The notes under the pieces: model-generated
Seen by the model: only the letters and a program-made list of their open reading frames with translations
Told to the model about the DNA's origin: nothing
Database searches by the model: none
Made by a program: the position numbers and the translations under genes
Shown: one piece after another, positions 4,142 to 26,848 of the stretch
Layout of the letters: each line of letters starts with the position of its first letter
Position numbering within the stretch: position 1 is the first letter of the stretch
IMG/VR virus record: IMGVR_UViG_3300042905_001408
Span: 1-29,000 of that record
Direction: 5' to 3' (one strand)
DNA: 29,000 nt
From: a virus

Positions 4142-5238
4142 GCAAACAACAATATAACTTACACACAAAGACAGATTATTTGAATAGAAAAATGTTTTTG
4201 GATCCACAGGGTCCAGTTACTATTCAACGGTTTGAGGAAGTCAAATATAACAAAATTGCAGATTTTGAAAAAACAGCAAGAGGTTTCTTTTGGGTTCCAG
4301 AAGAAATTAGTTTAACTAAAGACGCAAATGATTTCAAAGATTCTAGTGATGCAGTTAAGCATATCTTTACTAGCAACCTATTACGACAAACAGCACTAGA
4401 CAGTTTGCAAGGTCGTGGTCCTAGTCAAATCTTTACCCCAGTAATCAGCTTACCTGAATTAGAGGCACTAGTTTATAACTGGACATTCTTTGAAACAAAT
4501 ATTCACAGTCGCAGTTATAGTCACATCATTCGCAACATTTATAATGTGCCAAAAGATGTTTTCAATAGTATCCATGACACTAAAGAAATCATAGACATGG
4601 CAAGTAGTGTTGGCAAGTACTATGATAAGTTGCATGAGGCAAATTGTAATAAAGAAGCCGGCATGTATGTTGAAGAAGATTATCATATCAAAGCAATCTA
4701 TCTTGCATTGCATGCCAGTTACGCACTAGAAGCATTTAGATTTATGGTATCATTTGCTACAAGTTTGGCGATGGTAGAAAACAAAATCTTTATTGGTAAT
4801 GGCAACATTATCAGTTTGATTTTACAAGACGAATTGCTGCATAAGGGCTGGACAGCATATCTTATCAATCAAGTGGTTAAAGAAGATAGCCGTTTTGCTA
4901 AGATTGCAGAAGAATGTAAATCAGAAGTAATTCAAATTTATACTGATGTAATCAACGAAGAAAAAGCATGGGCCGATTATTTGTTTAAGAAAGGCCCTGT
5001 GATTGGTCTGAATGCAAATATTCTTAAAGACTTTGTAGACTATACAGCAGTAAACGCACTTAAAGATATTGGCATAAAGTATTGGGAGCATGCTCCTAAA
5101 ACTACTCCGATACCTTGGTTTAACAAACATTCTGACACCAGTAAAAAGCAGGTTGCACTTCAAGAAAATGAATCAACAAACTATGTCATAGGTGTAATGG
5201 ATTCAACTATAAATTATGATGAATTGCCTACTCTATAA
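4138..5238 (+). CDS. nrdB: class Ia ribonucleotide reductase, small (beta) subunit
   Basis: Diiron-tyrosyl radical subunit of ribonucleotide reductase. I start it at ATG 4138, which overlaps the nrdA stop (ATGA), rather than the TTG at 4129. It then has 366 aa, close to E. coli NrdB (376). Visible iron ligands are the Asp in ALDSLQG, the Glu in LEAFRF, and Glu/His in QDELLH. The radical tyrosine is Y127 in IHSRSY. The C-terminal tail has the conserved Tyr (NYVIGVMD) that passes the radical to NrdA and ends in an acidic peptide that docks on NrdA. One oddity: the Glu and His before the radical Tyr are four apart (E119 to H123) instead of the usual three (E115/H118 in E. coli). The gene's last 25 bases overlap a convergent endonuclease gene. 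Confidence 0.96.
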
Positions 5239-16003: not shown

Positions 16004-16064
16004 AGGATACTAACAGCAAATTTTATACATTAGACTTTTAATCTAAACCGTAAAAATGTATCCT
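16004..16064 (+). ncRNA. ACAGCAA-element RNA, copy in the tRNA array
   Basis: Closing stem AGGATAC (16004-16010) pairs with GTATCCT (16058-16064). Two bases later comes ACAGCAA (16013-16019), then a perfect 5-bp hairpin TTAGA-CTTTTAA-TCTAA that looks like a lysine anticodon arm (TTT). Only 11 bases follow, so there is no T arm, and the 3' end is GTTA, not CCA. It shares its plan with three elements upstream of the Ro60-like gene (21563, 21728, 21932), and its 3' flank ATCCTGTTATTTT is identical to that at 21712. Either a new RNA family or a degenerate tRNA-Lys. Confidence 0.5.
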
Positions 16065-17559: not shown

Positions 17560-18120
17560 ATGGCTGTTCTAGCACTAGATATAAGTGGAGTTCCCCGGCA
17601 ATGGATCTCTTACGATGATGCAATTACTTACCAAGCTAAAAATGCTGTGGCATGGTCTATGGGAGAAGTTGTTGCAAGATATCGCGGTGGAATCCAGAAT
17701 GACGGCACATTGAGTTATCTGGAAACGCCTAGTATCATTGCCATTAAGGGTCATGGATTTGATCCGTATAAGCATGCACAAGTCGCATTAAGTAACAGAA
17801 CATTGTTTGGTCGTGACCGACATGTATGTGCATATTGCGGTGGGCATTTTGCTAACTATCATTATCTAAGCCGTGATCACATTCTGCCTAAGAGCCGTGG
17901 TGGTGAAAACACTTGGATGAATGTTGTTACCGCATGTAAAGAATGTAATGGAAAGAAAGGTAATAAGACGCTTAAGGAAGCCCGTATGGAACTTCTATAC
18001 GCACCTTATGTGCCTAATCACTTTGAAAACATGATTCTACAGAATCGCAATATTATTGCAGATCAGATGGAGTATCTATTGACAGGTGTTCCTAAGCATA
18101 GTAGAATTTTGAAAAATTAG
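17560..18120 (+). CDS. HNH endonuclease
   Basis: A 186-aa HNH nuclease. The ββα-metal core is at about 85-140: RHVCAYCGG (first zinc pair), then SRDHILPKSRGGENTWMN with the catalytic DH and Asn, and TACKECNGKKGNKT (second zinc pair and C-terminal Asn/Lys). This is the common phage and bacterial McrA-like HNH type, often free-standing and behaving as a homing enzyme. It has a GCGAGG site before ATG 17560. It sits between tRNA genes, and its base use does not differ obviously from its neighbours. Confidence 0.9.
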   Translation: MAVLALDISGVPRQWISYDDAITYQAKNAVAWSMGEVVARYRGGIQNDGTLSYLETPSIIAIKGHGFDPYKHAQVALSNRTLFGRDRHVCAYCGGHFANYHYLSRDHILPKSRGGENTWMNVVTACKECNGKKGNKTLKEARMELLYAPYVPNHFENMILQNRNIIADQMEYLLTGVPKHSRILKN

Positions 18121-20914: not shown

Positions 20915-21493
20915 ATGCCCAGCGTGTTTTTAGTAAGTGATACTCACTTCGGTCACGCCGGAGTGTGTAGATTTTTGCGTGATGATGGAACCAAACTGCG
21001 TCCCTGGGATGACCCCAATGAAATGGACGAAGAAATGGTCAAGCGTTGGAACGAAAGAGTAAAGCCTAACGATAAAGTTTATCATTTAGGTGATGTAGTA
21101 ATTAATCGTAAAGCACTGAACATCCTTCGTAGATTGAACGGGGATAAGGTGCTTATCAAAGGTAACCACGATATTTTTAAGTTGGAAGATTATACTGACC
21201 ACTTTAGAGATATTCGTGGCTATCATGTTATGAACGGTATGATTTTAAGTCATATCCCTGTCCATGAAGAAAGTTTGGGCCGTTTTGGTGTAAACATTCA
21301 CGGACATCTTCATGCAAACCGCGTTGTCAAAATCAAGCACAAGGGTGCTACACCTGAAGTTGATCACAGATATCATTGTGTTTGTGTGGAACAAACTGAT
21401 TTTGCACCTATCTTATTTGAGGATGTGTTAAAGCGAATCAAAGAAGAAGGTGGCGAAGTTGGCTTTAAAAATGGTAATGGTGTTGTTATGTAA
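20915..21493 (+). CDS. calcineurin-like metallophosphoesterase
   Basis: A 192-aa dinuclear metal phosphoesterase. All signature motifs are present in order: DTHFGH (residues 9-14), GDVV (near 59), KGNHD (near 86), SHIPVHEE (near 112) and the C-terminal HGHLH (near 129). It would hydrolyse phosphomono- or diesters; similar small phage and bacterial enzymes act on nucleotides or RNA/DNA ends, but the substrate is not visible. AAAGGAG precedes ATG 20915, and the gene directly precedes the structured-RNA and Ro60-like locus, which makes a role in RNA end repair or decay tempting. Confidence 0.92.
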   Translation: MPSVFLVSDTHFGHAGVCRFLRDDGTKLRPWDDPNEMDEEMVKRWNERVKPNDKVYHLGDVVINRKALNILRRLNGDKVLIKGNHDIFKLEDYTDHFRDIRGYHVMNGMILSHIPVHEESLGRFGVNIHGHLHANRVVKIKHKGATPEVDHRYHCVCVEQTDFAPILFEDVLKRIKEEGGEVGFKNGNGVVM

Positions 21494-21496
21494 CTT

Positions 21497-21505
21497 TACC
21501 CAAAA
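21497..21505 (+). promoter_or_regulatory. TACCCAAAA motif upstream of promoter
   Basis: Third copy of TACCCAAAA, four bases after the phosphoesterase stop and four bases before the -35 box at 21510. Confidence 0.4.
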
Positions 21506-21509
21506 TTAC

Positions 21510-21538
21510 TTGTCAACAAGTGACTTTGGTGACATAAT
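21510..21538 (+). promoter_or_regulatory. sigma70-like promoter for RNA/Ro60 locus
   Basis: TTGTCA (21510-21515), 17 bases, CATAAT (21533-21538). The predicted start near 21545 is about 18 bases before the first structured element. Confidence 0.6.
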
Positions 21539-21562
21539 AACATCATTGAGTTAGAGATTATA

Positions 21563-21716
21563 AGGATCGGTACAGCAACATTTACTTTATAGTGAATGGT
21601 CTGGGCATAGTATGGTACATGCTGGAGGGACAACCCGTTGAAGGTGTGTATTGAAATACTCCGGACGAACTCAGAGTGATGGCCTGAGTATAATAAAAGC
21701 AGTCAACAACGATCCT
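21563..21716 (+). ncRNA. ACAGCAA-element RNA A, upstream of Ro60-like gene
   Basis: Closing stem AGGATCG (21563-21569) pairs with CGATCCT (21710-21716). After two bases comes ACAGCAA (21572-21578), then at once an 8-bp hairpin (CATTTACT/AGTGAATG, 21579-21598). Further hairpins include GCAT...ATGC, GTAT/ATAC and CTCAG...CTGAG. The 154-nt element has no convincing open frame. ACAG can alternatively pair with CTGT at the 3' end of the stem. Confidence 0.55.
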
Positions 21717-21727
21717 GTTATTTTGTT

Positions 21728-21920
21728 AGGATGATGACAGCAATCTAAAACAATACTGCCTTGTTTTAGGGAAACCTAAACAGCCTGTTGGGGTTAGCCA
21801 ACTTTGTGTCTAGTCAAGATACTAGGATCGGTCATGTACGATACATGATAGGCTTGTGGTACAAACTCCCTTAGTGGTAGGGGGCAAGCAGAAATATAAA
21901 ATACCCGTATCGGTCATCCT
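21728..21920 (+). ncRNA. ACAGCAA-element RNA B, tandem second copy
   Basis: Closing stem AGGATGA (21728-21734) pairs with TCATCCT (21914-21920). Two bases, ACAGCAA (21737-21743), then a 9-bp hairpin CTAAAACAA/TTGTTTTAG. Inside are further perfect hairpins: CTAGT/ACTAG, TCATGTA/TACATGA and GCTTG...CAAGC around CTCCCT...AGGGGG. It begins 11 bases behind element A. Confidence 0.55.
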
Positions 21921-21931
21921 GTTAGAATTAG

Positions 21932-21987
21932 TGAATGCTAACAGCAACTTTTTATTCAAACTTGAAAATTGAAATAAAACGCATTCA
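21932..21987 (+). ncRNA. ACAGCAA-element D in the leader of the Ro60-like gene
   Basis: TGAATGC (21932-21938) pairs with GCATTCA (21981-21987). Two bases, ACAGCAA (21941-21947), then a U-rich run, a TTCAA/TTGAA hairpin and an A-rich run. The ribosome binding site GAAAGGA follows directly, so the element could also act as a translational control site. Confidence 0.5.
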
Positions 21988-22001
21988 GAAAGGAAAATGA
22001 A

Positions 22002-23417
22002 ATGAACGCATTTGTAAACGCAGTAGCGAACCAAGAAGCCCGTACCCAAAATGGTATGAAGGCTCGTAAGTCTAGTGCTAACGCACTGGTTGATCTGTTC
22101 TATAACATCGGTGCAAGCCGTGGTAAGAACATTGTACCTGCTTTTACCTCTGCCTATGTCCAAGATAAGGACTTGGCATTGCGTATCGCATTGTGGGCCC
22201 GCGATGCCCGTAGTGGAGCAGGCGAACGTCAATTGTTCCGTGATATCTTGACTCATTTGGAAAAGACTGATCCCGATGCGGCAGTCCGTCTGTTGAACAA
22301 GGTACCTGAACTTGGTCGTTTTGATGACTTGTTTGTTTTCAAGTCAAAGGACATGAAGGCTAAGGCTTACACTCTGTTGGGTGATAACCTTCGTGTTAAG
22401 AATGGTCTTGCGGCTAAGTGGACTCCTCGTAAGGGCCCTGTTGCCCGCGAAATCCGTGAGTTCTTCGGCATGAGTCCTAAGAACTACCGTAAGACTTTGG
22501 TCTCTATGACCAATGTCGTTGAATCACAAATGTGTGCCAACGACTGGGACAACATCAACTTCAGCCATGTTCCCTCACAGGCTGCACGAATCTACAAGAA
22601 GGCGTTCAACCGTCATTCTGTTAAGTTCGCAGAGTATGTACAGAAGTTGGTTAGTGGAGATAAGACTGTCAAGGTTAACGCCGGCGCGATCTATCCTCAT
22701 GATGTCCTGAAGGGTGTGATCAATGCATATGGTCGTGCGTCTTATGACAAGACCGAGTTGGATCACATTGTTGCGCAATGGGATGCATTGCCTAACTATG
22801 TTGGTGATGCTAACATCATGCCGCTTGTTGACGTTAGTGGTTCTATGACTTGCCCTGCAGGTAAGAACACTAACGTTCGTTGCTTGGATGTTTCAGTCTC
22901 ATTGGGATTGTACTTGGCTGATAAGAACAAGGGTGCGTTCCACGGAACCTTCTTGACTTTCAGCGAAAAGCCTGAATTGATGACCCTAAAGGGTAACATC
23001 GTTCAAAAGGCTGATCAAATGATCAAGTCAACTTGGGGCATGAGTACCAATCTACATGCGGCTTTTGACAAGATCCTTAGCACCGCAGTTAAGAATTCTG
23101 TTCCTAACAGCGATATGCCAAAGATGTTGTTGATCCTTAGCGATATGCAGTTCAACCAATGCGTCCGTCATGATGACTCAGCAATGGAAATGATTGAACG
23201 CAAGTATCGTGACGCAGGCTACGAAATGCCAGCAGTGGTTTTTTGGAACTTGAACAGTAGCGACAACGTTCCTGTCAAGTCAGACAAGAGTGGTGCGGCA
23301 CTTGTGTCAGGGTTCAGCCCAAGCATCATGACTAGTCTGTTGTCAGCAGACCCGCTGGAATTCACTCCAGAAGGTATGATGATGAAGACCATCATGGCAG
23401 ATCGTTACGATTGCTAA
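22002..23417 (+). CDS. Ro60-like TROVE/vWA RNA-binding protein (DUF2828 type)
   Basis: A 471-aa protein with the Ro60 plan: an N-terminal alpha-helical repeat region (about 20-250) followed by a von Willebrand A domain (about 270-470). The MIDAS metal site is complete: D277-VSGS281, T349 in MSTNLH and D381 in LSDMQ. The helical part has features I associate with DUF2828: ARSGAGERQLFRDIL, ELGRFDDLFVF, NYRKTL and then VPSQAARIYKKAF, RHSVKFAEYV, AGAIYPHDV. Ro60 is a ring that binds misfolded RNA ends and Y RNAs and, in bacteria, works with nucleases in RNA decay. The about 500 bases ahead of it hold structured RNA elements, and a strong terminator follows. Its base composition is more GC-rich and its codon use more biased than neighbours, suggesting high expression. 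Binding of the neighbouring RNAs is inference. Confidence 0.87.
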   Translation: MNAFVNAVANQEARTQNGMKARKSSANALVDLFYNIGASRGKNIVPAFTSAYVQDKDLALRIALWARDARSGAGERQLFRDILTHLEKTDPDAAVRLLNKVPELGRFDDLFVFKSKDMKAKAYTLLGDNLRVKNGLAAKWTPRKGPVAREIREFFGMSPKNYRKTLVSMTNVVESQMCANDWDNINFSHVPSQAARIYKKAFNRHSVKFAEYVQKLVSGDKTVKVNAGAIYPHDVLKGVINAYGRASYDKTELDHIVAQWDALPNYVGDANIMPLVDVSGSMTCPAGKNTNVRCLDVSVSLGLYLADKNKGAFHGTFLTFSEKPELMTLKGNIVQKADQMIKSTWGMSTNLHAAFDKILSTAVKNSVPNSDMPKMLLILSDMQFNQCVRHDDSAMEMIERKYRDAGYEMPAVVFWNLNSSDNVPVKSDKSGAALVSGFSPSIMTSLLSADPLEFTPEGMMMKTIMADRYDC

Positions 23418-23425
23418 TGGACTAT

Positions 23426-23457
23426 AAAGTTATATCGGATTAATCCGATATAACTTT
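23426..23457 (+). terminator. strong terminator after Ro60-like gene
   Basis: AAAGTTATATCGGA (23426-23439) pairs perfectly with TCCGATATAACTTT (23444-23457) around a TTAA loop, ending in T residues. Confidence 0.85.
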
Positions 23458-24452: not shown

Positions 24453-24529
24453 GGGACGTTAGCTCAGTTGGTAGCAGCACTCGGCTTTTAACCGATAGGT
24501 CATTGGTTCGAACCCAATACGTCCTACCA
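24453..24529 (+). tRNA. tRNA-Lys (TTT)
   Basis: Acceptor GGGACGT/ACGTCCT with one end mismatch, anticodon loop CTTTTAA (TTT), T arm TTGGTTCGAACCCAA, encoded ACCA. The 3' CCA is also part of the stem of the RNA that follows. Confidence 0.93.
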
Positions 24530-24931: not shown

Positions 24932-25016
24932 GGAGATGAAGCATCAATGGTGATGCAGTGGACTGTAAATCCGCCGCCTTATGGCACGACTGGTTCGATC
25001 CCAGTAATCTCCACCA
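24932..25016 (+). tRNA. tRNA-Tyr (GTA)
   Basis: Class II tRNA with long variable arm (CGCCGCCTTATGGCACG region). Anticodon loop CTGTAAA (GTA), T arm ACTGGTTCGATCCCAGT, encoded ACCA. One mismatch at the seventh acceptor pair. A queuosine-type anticodon. Confidence 0.92.
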
Positions 25017-25274: not shown

Positions 25275-25303
25275 TTGACAATATGTATGAAATCAAATAT
25301 ACT
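25275..25303 (+). promoter_or_regulatory. near-consensus promoter for tRNA-Leu (TAG)
   Basis: TTGACA (25275-25280), 17 bases, TATACT (25298-25303). Directly behind tRNA-Gly. Expected start near 25310, at the boxA. Confidence 0.78.
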
Positions 25304-25310
25304 TCATACT

Positions 25311-25320
25311 TGTTCTTTAA
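25311..25320 (+). promoter_or_regulatory. boxA-like antitermination site
   Basis: TGTTCTTTAA, identical to the site at 19191, followed in both places by AGTTTTTTGCCC and a tRNA-Leu. Confidence 0.5.
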
Positions 25321-25335
25321 GATAAATAGTTTTTT

Positions 25336-25420
25336 GCCCTGGTGGTGTAATTGGTAGCCACGCTGGTCTTAGAAGCCAGTGCTTAATCGCGTGTCGGTTC
25401 GAGTCCGACCTAGGGCACCA
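25336..25420 (+). tRNA. tRNA-Leu (TAG)
   Basis: Class II tRNA. Acceptor GCCCTGG/CTAGGGC with weak inner pairs, anticodon arm CTGGT-CTTAGAA-GCCAG (TAG), variable arm GCTTAATCGCGT, T arm TCGGTTCGAGTCCGA, encoded ACCA. Intact relative of the fragment at 19219. Confidence 0.93.
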
Positions 25421-25463
25421 CAATTTATTGGGAAATCACTTGCCTAGAGGAATAAATACTTAT

Positions 25464-26018
25464 ATGAAAAGAGTTTATATAAGTGATATGCCCTGGGAAG
25501 AAATACAAAGGCACTACAACGAAGGAATGTCTTTGCGTGATTTACAGAAAAAGTTCAGAATTAGTTTTAAAACTTTTCAAAAAGCAAAAAAATTGAACTT
25601 ATTTGTGCCTAGAGATTTATCATCAGCAATGAAAATAACTTTGATGATTAACCCTAGAAATTACTCACATATAAGAAAGAACAGGTCAGCACTTAAAAAT
25701 TATAGGGCTGATTGTACTTTTAAGTTTAACTTGTCAGATTATCCTGACGAATTCAATTTTGAATTGATTGAAAGCTATGGTTGGTATAAACCCAAAAATA
25801 GGGGCGATAATATCAATGGTGTTAGCAGAGACCATGCAGTAAGTGTAAAATACGGGTTCGACAACAATTTACCTGCTGAACATTTGGCTCACCCTGCTAA
25901 TTGTGTTTTAATGAGACACGGTGATAATGTGTCTAAATATAGCAAGATATCAATGTCTTATGAAGAATTGCTCAAACGCATTGAAGCATGGGACCAGAAA
26001 TATGGGGGATTGGTATAG
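25464..26018 (+). CDS. HNH-type endonuclease with N-terminal helix-turn-helix
   Basis: I start at ATG 25464 (184 aa); a TTG at 25428 is also possible. The N-terminus (WEEIQRHYNEGMSLRDLQKK...FKTFQKAKKLN) looks like a helix-turn-helix. The C-terminal half has the metal-finger nuclease pattern NGVSRDHAVSVKYGFDNN, HPANCVLMRHGDNVSKYSK, with catalytic Asp-His and the Asn/His that follow. I recall this as a free-standing HNH variant in phages. Its last 15 bases are the first 15 of tRNA-Ala, so the enzyme may recognise that tRNA gene or have settled exactly at its 5' end. Confidence 0.78.
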   Translation: MKRVYISDMPWEEIQRHYNEGMSLRDLQKKFRISFKTFQKAKKLNLFVPRDLSSAMKITLMINPRNYSHIRKNRSALKNYRADCTFKFNLSDYPDEFNFELIESYGWYKPKNRGDNINGVSRDHAVSVKYGFDNNLPAEHLAHPANCVLMRHGDNVSKYSKISMSYEELLKRIEAWDQKYGGLV

Positions 26019-26084: not shown

Positions 26085-26160
26085 TGCGGCCGAGGGAGAC
26101 AGTAACCCGCCAGTCTCATAAGCTGGAGATACCTGGTGCGACTCCAGGGGTTCGCAACCA
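26085..26160 (+). tRNA. tRNA with CAT anticodon, third, unusual T loop
   Basis: Anticodon arm CCAGT-CTCATAA-GCTGG (CAT). T arm CCTGG-TGCGACT-CCAGG has G where the near-universal second T (psi55) should be. The acceptor TGCGGCC/GTTCGCA starts with a T-A pair and has one mismatch; encoded ACCA. Initiator-like or degenerating; the D arm is also odd. Confidence 0.8.
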
Positions 26161-26203: not shown

Positions 26204-26279
26204 CTCGGATTAGTATAGCCTGGTAGTATCCGTGCTTTGGGAGCATGTGGCGGGGGTTCAAATCCCTCATCCGAGACCA
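26204..26279 (+). tRNA. tRNA-Pro (TGG)
   Basis: Perfect acceptor CTCGGAT/ATCCGAG, anticodon arm CGTGC-TTTGGGA-GCATG (TGG), T arm GGGGGTTCAAATCCCTC, encoded ACCA. Confidence 0.93.
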
Positions 26280-26296
26280 TTTAAATTGAGGAAAAT

Positions 26297-26428
26297 ATGG
26301 CAGCAAAAAGTGAACAAAGAAAGAGTGTTGTAAAGCGTACTAGTCAAGGCGGTAGTAGCCCCAAGACCAGTTCAATGAATAAAACTGAAAAGCGTAGTTT
26401 CAAAAAGAATAGAGGACAAGGCAAATGA
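26297..26428 (+). CDS. small basic phage protein, 43 aa
   Basis: A 43-aa, very basic protein (SEQRKSVVKRTSQGGSSPKT, KRSFKKNRGQGK). I recognise this pattern (QRKSVV.RT...TSSMNK...K.RGQGK) as a small conserved protein of T4-like phages; its role is unknown, and nucleic-acid binding is likely from the charge. GAGG precedes ATG 26297. Overlaps the next gene by four bases (ATGA). Confidence 0.75.
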   Translation: MAAKSEQRKSVVKRTSQGGSSPKTSSMNKTEKRSFKKNRGQGK

Positions 26429-26601
26429 GTGGCAAAGGTAGTAGTCCAAGACCTTTTAGTGTGTCTCAAGAAGAATACGCAAATCGCTGGGACGCTATCT
26501 TTGGACGAGATTTAACTGATGATCTTAAAGTTAAGGAAGATGAACAAGCATTGGACGAAGCTTTTGATCAAATAGAAACAGAGCAAGAAATTCGTAAATG
26601 A
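26425..26601 (+). CDS. small conserved phage protein, 58 aa
   Basis: A 58-aa protein starting SGKGSSPRPFSVSQEEYANR and continuing WDAIFGRD, a pattern I have seen in many phages (S.GS.PRPFSV....F...WD.IFG). The rest is acidic. Coupled to the previous gene by ATGA. The stop is seven bases before tRNA-Val. Function unknown. Confidence 0.78.
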   Translation: MSGKGSSPRPFSVSQEEYANRWDAIFGRDLTDDLKVKEDEQALDEAFDQIETEQEIRK

Positions 26602-26607
26602 AATATT

Positions 26608-26683
26608 GGATCGTTAGCTCAGTTGGTAGAGCGGCGCCCTTACAAGGCGTAGGTCGGCGGTTCGAACCCGTCACGATCCACCA
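26608..26683 (+). tRNA. tRNA-Val (TAC)
   Basis: Perfect acceptor GGATCGT/ACGATCC, anticodon arm CGCC-CTTACAA-GGCG (TAC), T arm GGCGGTTCGAACCCGTC, encoded ACCA. Confidence 0.95.
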
Positions 26684-26698
26684 ATAATAAATAATGTT

Positions 26699-26848
26699 AT
26701 GAAATTGTTTGAGGCAACAATAAGAGTTAATGGTAAAGAGTTTAAAGATAGAGTCGGCGCAAACAACGCTGAAGAAGCTAAACTCTTACTGCAACAACGA
26801 CATGGTCCAAGAGCCGTTCCTTATTTGCCAAAAATGATTCCAAGTTAA
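26699..26848 (+). CDS. small protein, 49 aa
   Basis: ATG 26699, between tRNA-Val and tRNA-Gly. The peptide MKLFEATIRVNGKEFKDRVG, then NNAEEAKLLLQQRHG, looks like a compact beta-beta-alpha fold; similar short proteins occur in phages. The stop is one base before tRNA-Gly. No clear ribosome binding site. Function unknown. Confidence 0.62.
   Translation: MKLFEATIRVNGKEFKDRVGANNAEEAKLLLQQRHGPRAVPYLPKMIPS

Follow-up and report, generated by a model that had tools for sequence, protein, structure and literature searches.

A stretch of viral DNA of 29,000 nucleotides (nt), positions 1-29,000 of IMG/VR record IMGVR_UViG_3300042905_001408 and hereafter the window, carries a locus that we read, with a probability of about 0.75, as a phage ribonucleoprotein (RNP) of the Ro60/Y RNA type. 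In humans, Ro60 is a major autoantigen, and its fundamental role is still under debate. The locus combines a gene for a Ro60-like protein of 471 amino acids (aa) with three consecutive RNA elements upstream of it, here called M1, M2 and M3, which share one plan: a 7-base arm and two bases lead into the word ACAGCAA, then comes an interior, and a sequence exactly complementary to the arm closes the element. A paired terminal stem and a conserved internal loop near a Ro60-type gene, the features by which Y RNAs are recognized, are both present, the mature termini being predicted. We infer that these elements are the Y RNAs of a DUF2828-type Ro60 and are bound by it. A preliminary description of the same DNA, made from the letters alone, had proposed a Y-RNA-like system with these three elements inside a tRNA array, and our analysis supports that interpretation, in which binding of the RNAs is again a prediction from sequence. 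The locus does lie within such an array, with 26 tRNA genes called in the window by ARAGORN.

The protein has a complete predicted Ro60 fold. An AlphaFold2 model built from 43 sequences (predicted local distance difference test, pLDDT, 88.8; predicted template modelling score, pTM, 0.88), which superseded one from a shallow alignment (pLDDT 69.7), consists of a helical-repeat ring followed by a von Willebrand factor A (vWA) domain. Its top fold match is Xenopus Ro60, over 407 residues spanning ring and vWA (Z 20.4, 12% identity), against Z 9.5 for the best non-Ro chain, in agreement with the Ro60 plan assigned to this gene from sequence. Matches in the PDB at E ≤ 0.001 are Ro60/TROVE entries in nine cases out of nine, including the Ro60 of Thermus phage phiLo. 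The residues previously read as a full metal ion-dependent adhesion site (MIDAS; D277, S279, S281, T349, D381) are invariant across the 43 aligned proteins. Pfam at E ≤ 0.01 calls only DUF7788 and DUF2828, the latter being the family originally suggested, and not TROVE (PF05731), which indicates a Ro60-fold protein of another sequence family. Thus the window protein shares with the Ro60/Rsr proteins (Xenopus 1YVR, Deinococcus 2NVO, phiLo 9L5Y) the two-part fold over ~400 residues and the complete MIDAS, but is 10-17% identical to them and has DUF2828 and DUF7788 instead of TROVE. PHROGs labels it 'RNA-binding protein', and relatives occur in 682 phage records, some under the names 'Ro-like RNA binding protein' or 'putative Ro sixty-related protein'.

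In most of the phage, bacterial and archaeal loci sampled, DUF2828-type Ro genes come with the motif. Loci were fetched by protein, keeping the best 80 of 286 for a first viral set, the best 80 of 249 for a second and the best 80 of at least 557 for a cellular set; since the best 80 per query were kept, the samples are close relatives of each query. In the first viral set (proteins 76-100% identical; with the window, 71 of 81 loci had 520 bases upstream, 49 of them non-redundant), elements were found in 79 of 80 loci, and eight of 12 named phages have them beside the gene. A held-out viral set comprised 89 loci fetched only with Mycobacterium and Synechococcus phage proteins, among them L096-L098, which are 98-100% relatives of the protein of mycobacteriophage DuncansLeg, whose locus had been examined before. 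Here the strict ACAGCAA element occurred in 42 loci on the strand of the gene and in none on the other. The misses showed TCAGCAA and GCAGCAA, and the search was widened to CAGCAA with a 3-base gap, so that only the ACAGCAA form is blind on the viral set, the cellular set being unaffected. In the CAGCAA form, 78 of the 89 loci carry an element on the strand of the gene versus four on the other (60 of 68 after removal of near-duplicates), and permuted words reach a mean of 4.7 and a maximum of 17 loci. Counted by words, 161 of 438 CAGCAA occurrences have a stem, versus 285 of 10,819 permuted ones. Among the 80 bacterial and archaeal contigs, 63 have elements, versus eight on the other strand (permuted words: mean 3.6, maximum 17; dereplicated, 60 of 76), often as arrays of two to six upstream of the gene. 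Many of these contigs are from Ruminococcus and other Firmicutes, with Chloroflexi and contigs labeled Lokiarchaeota and Woesearchaeota also represented; some may be proviral or contaminant.

At TROVE-type loci, an element was found in one of 19 (L285), counting both strands since orientation was uncertain. This sample consists of 10 and nine loci of 2.8-4.0 kilobases (kb) from eight of 349 and nine of 398 genomes of two phyla; two of the 17 genomes gave two overlapping loci each, and several loci match the TROVE profile only partly. One of them, L272, has two YrlA RNAs of the standard type, whose loop differs. Twelve of 13 gene-bearing phage records were matched at E ≤ 0.05 by a covariance model built from short elements, partly by construction, the miss being S13, which has one strict element; the match in KVP40 (~7 kb from the gene) and all three in BUCT-ZZ01 lie outside the sequences of the model itself. 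None of four records in which a protein search finds no Ro-like gene (T4, phiKZ, SPO1, RB49) was matched. RNAs C and D of T4 are, by annotation, likewise stable noncoding RNAs in a phage tRNA cluster, but T4 has neither a model match nor a Ro-like gene that we could find, and we rejected the T4 RNA C/D family as an identity for the elements.

Several tests free of selection for pairing support the closing stem: permuted-word controls, a 44-locus alignment, and the held-out viral and cellular loci. In the window, five of nine ACAGCAA words have their preceding 7-mer, at a gap of exactly two bases, perfectly complemented within 250 bases downstream, versus five of 286 for 104 permuted words of the same composition; of the five in the unpermuted set, the one at 4264 falls within an open reading frame (ORF) and is probably due to chance. 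The corresponding figures are 131/197 versus 96/4119 in 48 non-redundant relatives and 17/27 versus 15/736 in the 12 named phages. Stem pairing was then read from the columns of an alignment of 44 of the 49 non-redundant loci (L004, L022, L057, L064 and L076 were left out as rearranged). For M1, 38 of 41 rows show complete pairing, seven distinct stems being represented (cross-row control 78% of pairs). M2 is fully paired in 31 of 43, with eight of the 12 failures at the outermost pair only (control 89%), and M3 in 39 of 43, where a control of 94% leaves little variation to test. The preliminary description had staked its proposal on covarying stems at homologous loci and on such RNAs accompanying DUF2828-type genes elsewhere, and both were found.

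Inside the stems, the M1 consensus fold (21 sequences) has 33 pairs, 15 of which changed on both sides. M2 is 193-263 nt long and, by inspection, forms an H-type pseudoknot at a shared place in 22 of 26 sequences, with both helices covarying (variants GGAAC/GTTCC, GTGCC/GGCAC and GTAAC/GTTAC). The script used for its detection was loose, calling 25 of 26 against a shuffled mean of 9.6 and maximum of 14, and in the window, L045 and L051 it chose another place, hence the count of 22. A separate alignment of short elements (A3) was reduced from 52 to 45 by dropping seven false or doubtful ones, to 43 as alignment A2, and to 38 after removal of five misaligned at the 3' end; these 38 were picked for perfect stems, and their 100% pairing is by construction.

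The layout of the window locus, with a fourth element located in the tRNA array, is as follows.

16004-16064, plus strand: fourth, dispersed mini Y-like RNA, 61 nt, stem AGGATAC/GTATCCT, between tRNA-Ile and tRNA-His
16030-16046, plus strand: putative anticodon-arm mimic TTAGA-CTTTTAA-TCTAA, tip of the 16004 RNA, with the loop of tRNA-Lys UUU
21510-21538, plus strand: promoter-like site, sigma-70-like, TTGTCA-17-CATAAT, 10 of 12 matches
21563-21716, plus strand: M1, Y-like RNA 1, 154 nt, stem AGGATCG/CGATCCT, from stem pairing and consensus fold
21728-21920, plus strand: M2, Y-like RNA 2, 193 nt, stem AGGATGA/TCATCCT, from stem pairing, with the H-type pseudoknot near the 3' end in most relatives
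21932-21987, plus strand: M3, Y-like RNA 3, 56 nt, stem TGAATGC/GCATTCA, ending 14 nt before the start codon
21989-21994, plus strand: Shine-Dalgarno-like AAAGGA, directly after M3
22002-23417, plus strand: Ro60-like protein gene, 471 aa, DUF2828 and DUF7788, phrog_850, predicted helical-repeat ring and vWA with MIDAS

The fourth element and the position of the M3 end are additions to the preliminary description. Upstream lies a phosphoesterase gene (20915-21493, phrog_547), separated by ~500 bases from the Ro60-like gene. The claim that this interval is free of genes holds for the plus strand, where 21494-22001 has no ORF of at least 60 aa, no tRNA and no Rfam match at the gathering threshold, but not for the minus strand, on which an ORF (21822-22256) overlaps the element block. 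The predicted fold of 21545-21995 has an energy of -121.9 kcal/mol (z -2.63). A promoter-like site was indeed found at 21510, where a promoter had been placed, although with two promoter-like matches in the region versus a shuffle mean of 4.0, a single match is not unusual. Across loci the signal is clearer: a site of at least 9/12 occurs within 80 nt upstream of the first element in 42 of the 49 non-redundant loci versus 23% of shuffles. In 41 of 49 the last 400 bases before the gene have no plus-strand ORF of at least 60 aa and no tRNA, though tRNA genes crowd around. The distance from the end of M3 to the ATG is 13-17 nt in 48 of 49, with a Shine-Dalgarno-like site in that gap in 47 of 48. 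In L004 (3632-3913) and L064 (3065-3904), as in their near-duplicates, ORFs without a PHROGs match are inserted between the RNA array and the Ro-like gene, and after each inserted ORF a 40-41-nt short element of AGTTTAG type directly precedes the gene.

This arrangement raises the question of whether the elements are only cis-acting leader structures, that is, protein-binding or attenuation sites controlling the Ro-like gene rather than free RNAs. The Shine-Dalgarno-like site that follows M3 is what such a leader would have, as is the position of 93 of the 161 held-out viral elements within 700 nt upstream of the gene. A leader, however, would not account for the copy 6 kb away in the tRNA array (16004) or the far upstream and downstream copies in L051, nor for elements just downstream of the gene, as in DuncansLeg, Klebsiella phage KP13-26 and 41 of the 161 held-out elements; moreover, some elements hold whole tRNA-like domains and resemble YrlA. 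We therefore consider it unlikely that the elements act only as leaders, and favor free Y RNAs. Both roles may coincide in M3, which probably autoregulates the Ro60-like gene: it lies next to the ribosome-binding site, an element being kept there even where an ORF intervenes (L004, L064), from which autogenous repression is predicted.

The elements fall into three size classes with an identical end: up to 70 nt, 80-140 nt, and more than 140 nt. The largest class, to which M1 and M2 belong, makes up 73 of 153 distinct elements in the group of the window versus 2/22, 14/129 and 10/129 in the other three sets, where the class of up to 70 nt is commonest (11/22, 63/129 and 75/129). The middle class includes elements in which the 3' half of a tRNA is followed by its 5' half, the anticodon stem running into the closing stem. 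This permuted order is seen in L051, L054, L077, L094, L096, L200 and others; a strict pattern, which may miss some, found it in 5/153, 2/22, 9/129 and 3/129 distinct elements of the four sets. Below its 69-bit cut-off, the Rfam family YrlA (RF02553) matches several such loci end-to-end, L077 and L094 best (40.1 bits each, E 2.1e-5 and 2e-5), then L094 again (32.5), L045 (30.2) and L051 (26.4 bits), with partial matches in L054 (33.6) and L091 (27.3 bits). These matches in relatives tie the motif to Y RNAs by an independent route. The elements in L051 and L054 were also considered as permuted tRNA genes as such; this was rejected, Rfam finding them YrlA-like. The likeness to YrlA extends to a terminal closing stem with an internal loop above it, adjacency to a Ro60-type gene, sometimes tandem arrangement and, in some relatives, the circularly permuted tRNA domain. 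The differences are the loop, NCAGCAA two bases after a 7-bp stem rather than the AUGC that follows the stem in YrlA, and the four elements of the window, which have no tRNA elbow domain and no circularly permuted tRNA-like domain by fold or pattern.

Many short elements, or minis, carry instead the likeness of an anticodon arm. A CUNNNAA loop (CTNNNAA in DNA) came to light in the discovery set (6 of 45); the other sets then served to test it, against shuffles that keep base composition only. A hairpin tip of 5 bp with a 7-nt loop occurs in 20 of 57 minis from viral loci and in 23 of 66 from cellular ones, versus 1.8 and 3.0 in shuffles, with a peak at loop length 7, and CTNNNAA loops in 10 viral and 8 cellular minis versus 0.018 and 0.026. 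Of the 163 distinct minis in all sets taken together, 53 form the hairpin and 21 show the CTNNNAA loop; 110 are without a perfect 5-bp/7-nt arm, and in the first set 9-base loops are commoner (17 of 45). CTNNNAA is a common anticodon-loop form, fitted by 432 of the 934 tRNAs in our data. Its triplets in the minis correspond to anticodons for Asp, Asn, Lys, Arg, Thr, Phe, Cys, Ser, Tyr, Met and Leu, and none starts with A, though A makes up 41% of interiors. Seventeen of the 21 loops are identical to the anticodon loop of a tRNA in the data, where 45% would be expected; the remaining four all read CTGTCAA. In the window, the arm of the 16004 element is identical at 15 of 17 positions to the tRNA-Lys arm of a relative, and its loop is that of the window's own tRNA-Lys (24453-24529), whereas M3 reads, by inspection, TTCAA-A-CTTGAAA-A-TTGAA, a CTNNNAA loop behind an A.A mismatch. 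Thus, as judged from sequence, one class of these putative Y RNAs copies the tRNA body and another copies the anticodon arm. A second recurrent tip, ATTGGA/ATCGGA, appears in short elements without an anticodon-like loop (L090 2165-2220, L094 4135-4188, L089 4379-4435), and TATTGGA-type loops recur in the held-out set too.

Could the short elements then be degenerate or minimal tRNAs used in translation rather than Ro60 ligands? They do have an acceptor-like stem of 7 bp, a two-base linker that is often TT or TA and, near the canonical position, an anticodon arm with real anticodons, the triplet being centered near position 33 from the 5' end (34 in tRNA). Yet CAGCAA takes the place of the D-arm, 3-12 bases follow where the T-arm should be, the 3' flanks examined do not start with CCA, and two-thirds of the minis have no perfect arm at all. 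ARAGORN and Rfam call no tRNA at 16004-16064 or 21545-21990, and the elements follow a Ro60-like gene. Use in translation is accordingly very improbable. We give equally little credence to the elements being a product of shared ancestry, tRNA-transcript processing signals or a mobile cassette with no link to the Ro-like protein. Kinship among many of the loci and the frequent placement of elements in tRNA arrays would fit such an origin, but the signature stands beside proteins only 34-37% identical (Listeria, mycobacterial, Campylobacter and Bacillus phages) and in bacterial and archaeal contigs, while the gene-less records have no model match, though T4 carries a tRNA array.

Some observations weigh against the identification of the elements as Y RNAs. 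No CAGCAA-form element was found in 11 of the 89 viral and 17 of the 80 cellular gene-bearing loci, and four of the 12 named phages (Ci1, KVP40, OC, XbC2) have none within ~2.5 kb of the gene. The window elements match no Rfam family at the gathering threshold, the M1-M3 stretch having no match above chance level, and no YrlA-type member was found in the window phage. A 26.0-bit YrlA match in L045 (1846-1951) spans ordinary tRNA genes and is probably chance, so that YrlA matches near 26 bits may be chance. Finally, in RNA-seq of Listeria phage CKA15, the only one of three top-expressed regions given with coordinates in the portion of the article consulted (PMC12282133) is not the motif array. 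Candidates tried and rejected were a known Rfam family for 21450-22050 (chance-level matches only at E ≤ 10), nucleotide relatives in named phages (short weak pieces only), and Y-type RNAs elsewhere in a 108-kb sister contig (scattered weaker matches on both strands). No YrlA reached the gathering threshold in the window or in 16 sampled DUF2828-type loci, where only tRNA families reach the cut-off.

Both Ro60 proteins and Y RNAs of phages have been published before; the idea, though well supported, is thus not wholly new. Chen and colleagues reportedly found, in 2014, Y RNAs near Ro60 in more than 250 bacterial and phage species. For mycobacteriophage Y RNAs, Chen et al. 2014 is the work cited in the article on CKA15 (PMC12282133), which, in the portion consulted, itself proposes as possible Y RNAs some noncoding regions that lie upstream of the Ro-like gene CKA15_055 and are strongly transcribed, and reports the Ro-like protein in purified virions (20 peptides, 57.1% coverage). 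CKA15 resembles the window in having a Ro-like gene and noncoding RNAs beside tRNA genes, and upstream of that gene, at 25290-25552 on the minus strand of OR088597, we find three elements with the motif. The top-expressed region with stated coordinates, 26,236-26,727 in the same text, was considered as a motif array and rejected; it maps to about 989-1480 of L090 and has no CAGCAA element. These ~490 nt between tRNA genes, noncoding according to the authors and highly transcribed (PMC12282133), may be another large phage RNA. In the portion consulted, that article contains no CAGCAA motif, M1-M2-M3 array or anticodon-arm minis, and the literature searched, as far as it was accessible, gave no description of a CAGCAA family or of anticodon-arm Y RNAs, with overlap with Chen et al. 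2014 possible. TROVE proteins have been noted in jumbo phages (PMC7824862, consulted in part), and the four papers found on DUF2828 are, going by titles, plant work.

A few neighboring features deserve mention. Rfam adds two tRNA genes absent from the ARAGORN list (24932-25013 and 26086-26156; 36.0 and 31.1 bits). Within the tRNA array, an ORF at 16444-17073 matches QueC-like queuosine biosynthesis at its C-terminus (phrog_1550, E 3.8e-13 over 64 residues), and an HNH endonuclease gene lies at 17560-18120. In Cronobacter phage S13 (L084 4396-4638) and Citrobacter phage Ci1 (L083 4391-4625), the Ro-like gene is closely followed by tRNA-like genes of 113-121 nt; these are annotated as tRNA-Ser, tRNA-OTHER or pseudo-tRNA, or are Rfam calls, and may be tRNA-derived RNAs that are misannotated or contain introns.

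If the elements are Y RNAs, the system may work as follows. One promoter would give a single transcript that joins the three Y-like RNAs to the mRNA for the Ro60-fold protein; the fourth RNA would come from the tRNA array. The protein would bind each RNA at its closing stem and CAGCAA internal loop, and the RNAs would be cut out at the AU-rich linkers. The differing interiors (the permuted tRNA domain in relatives, the anticodon-arm mimic, the large M1 and M2 domains) could be effector modules that tether or gate Ro60. For this role we propose as a model Deinococcus, in which a Y RNA tethers Rsr to PNPase (PMC12282133, portion consulted). Surplus protein might shut off its own translation via M3, which abuts the ribosome-binding site. 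The particle would serve RNA quality control during infection, most likely of tRNAs; the setting in a tRNA array and the imitation of tRNA in two forms suggest tRNA surveillance, or baiting of tRNA-cleaving or tRNA-modifying enzymes.

A wider proposal we advance only tentatively, considering it possible but rather doubtful as a whole. DUF2828-type Ro60s may form a second widespread Ro60/Y RNA lineage, in phages, bacteria and archaea, defined by the stem-NN-NCAGCAA signature, whose Y RNAs would be modular imitations of tRNA, either a YrlA-like permuted body without the anticodon loop or the anticodon arm only. The phage minis, of Lys-UUU type here, could then be Ro60-bound baits that divert or sense anticodon nucleases of host defense, or tRNA-modifying enzymes, and so protect the tRNA array. 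Cleavage of tRNA by bacterial defenses is documented (PMC12409363 and PMC11042736, as far as consulted). A motif that predicts the RNA partner of Ro60 from sequence would make an uncharacterized DUF a testable RNP system in easily grown phages, for a gene family also found in many gut bacteria. The anticodon-arm minis, in turn, would link Ro60 RNPs to tRNA damage, a battleground of phages and bacterial defenses, and would help explain why Ro-like genes often sit in tRNA arrays.

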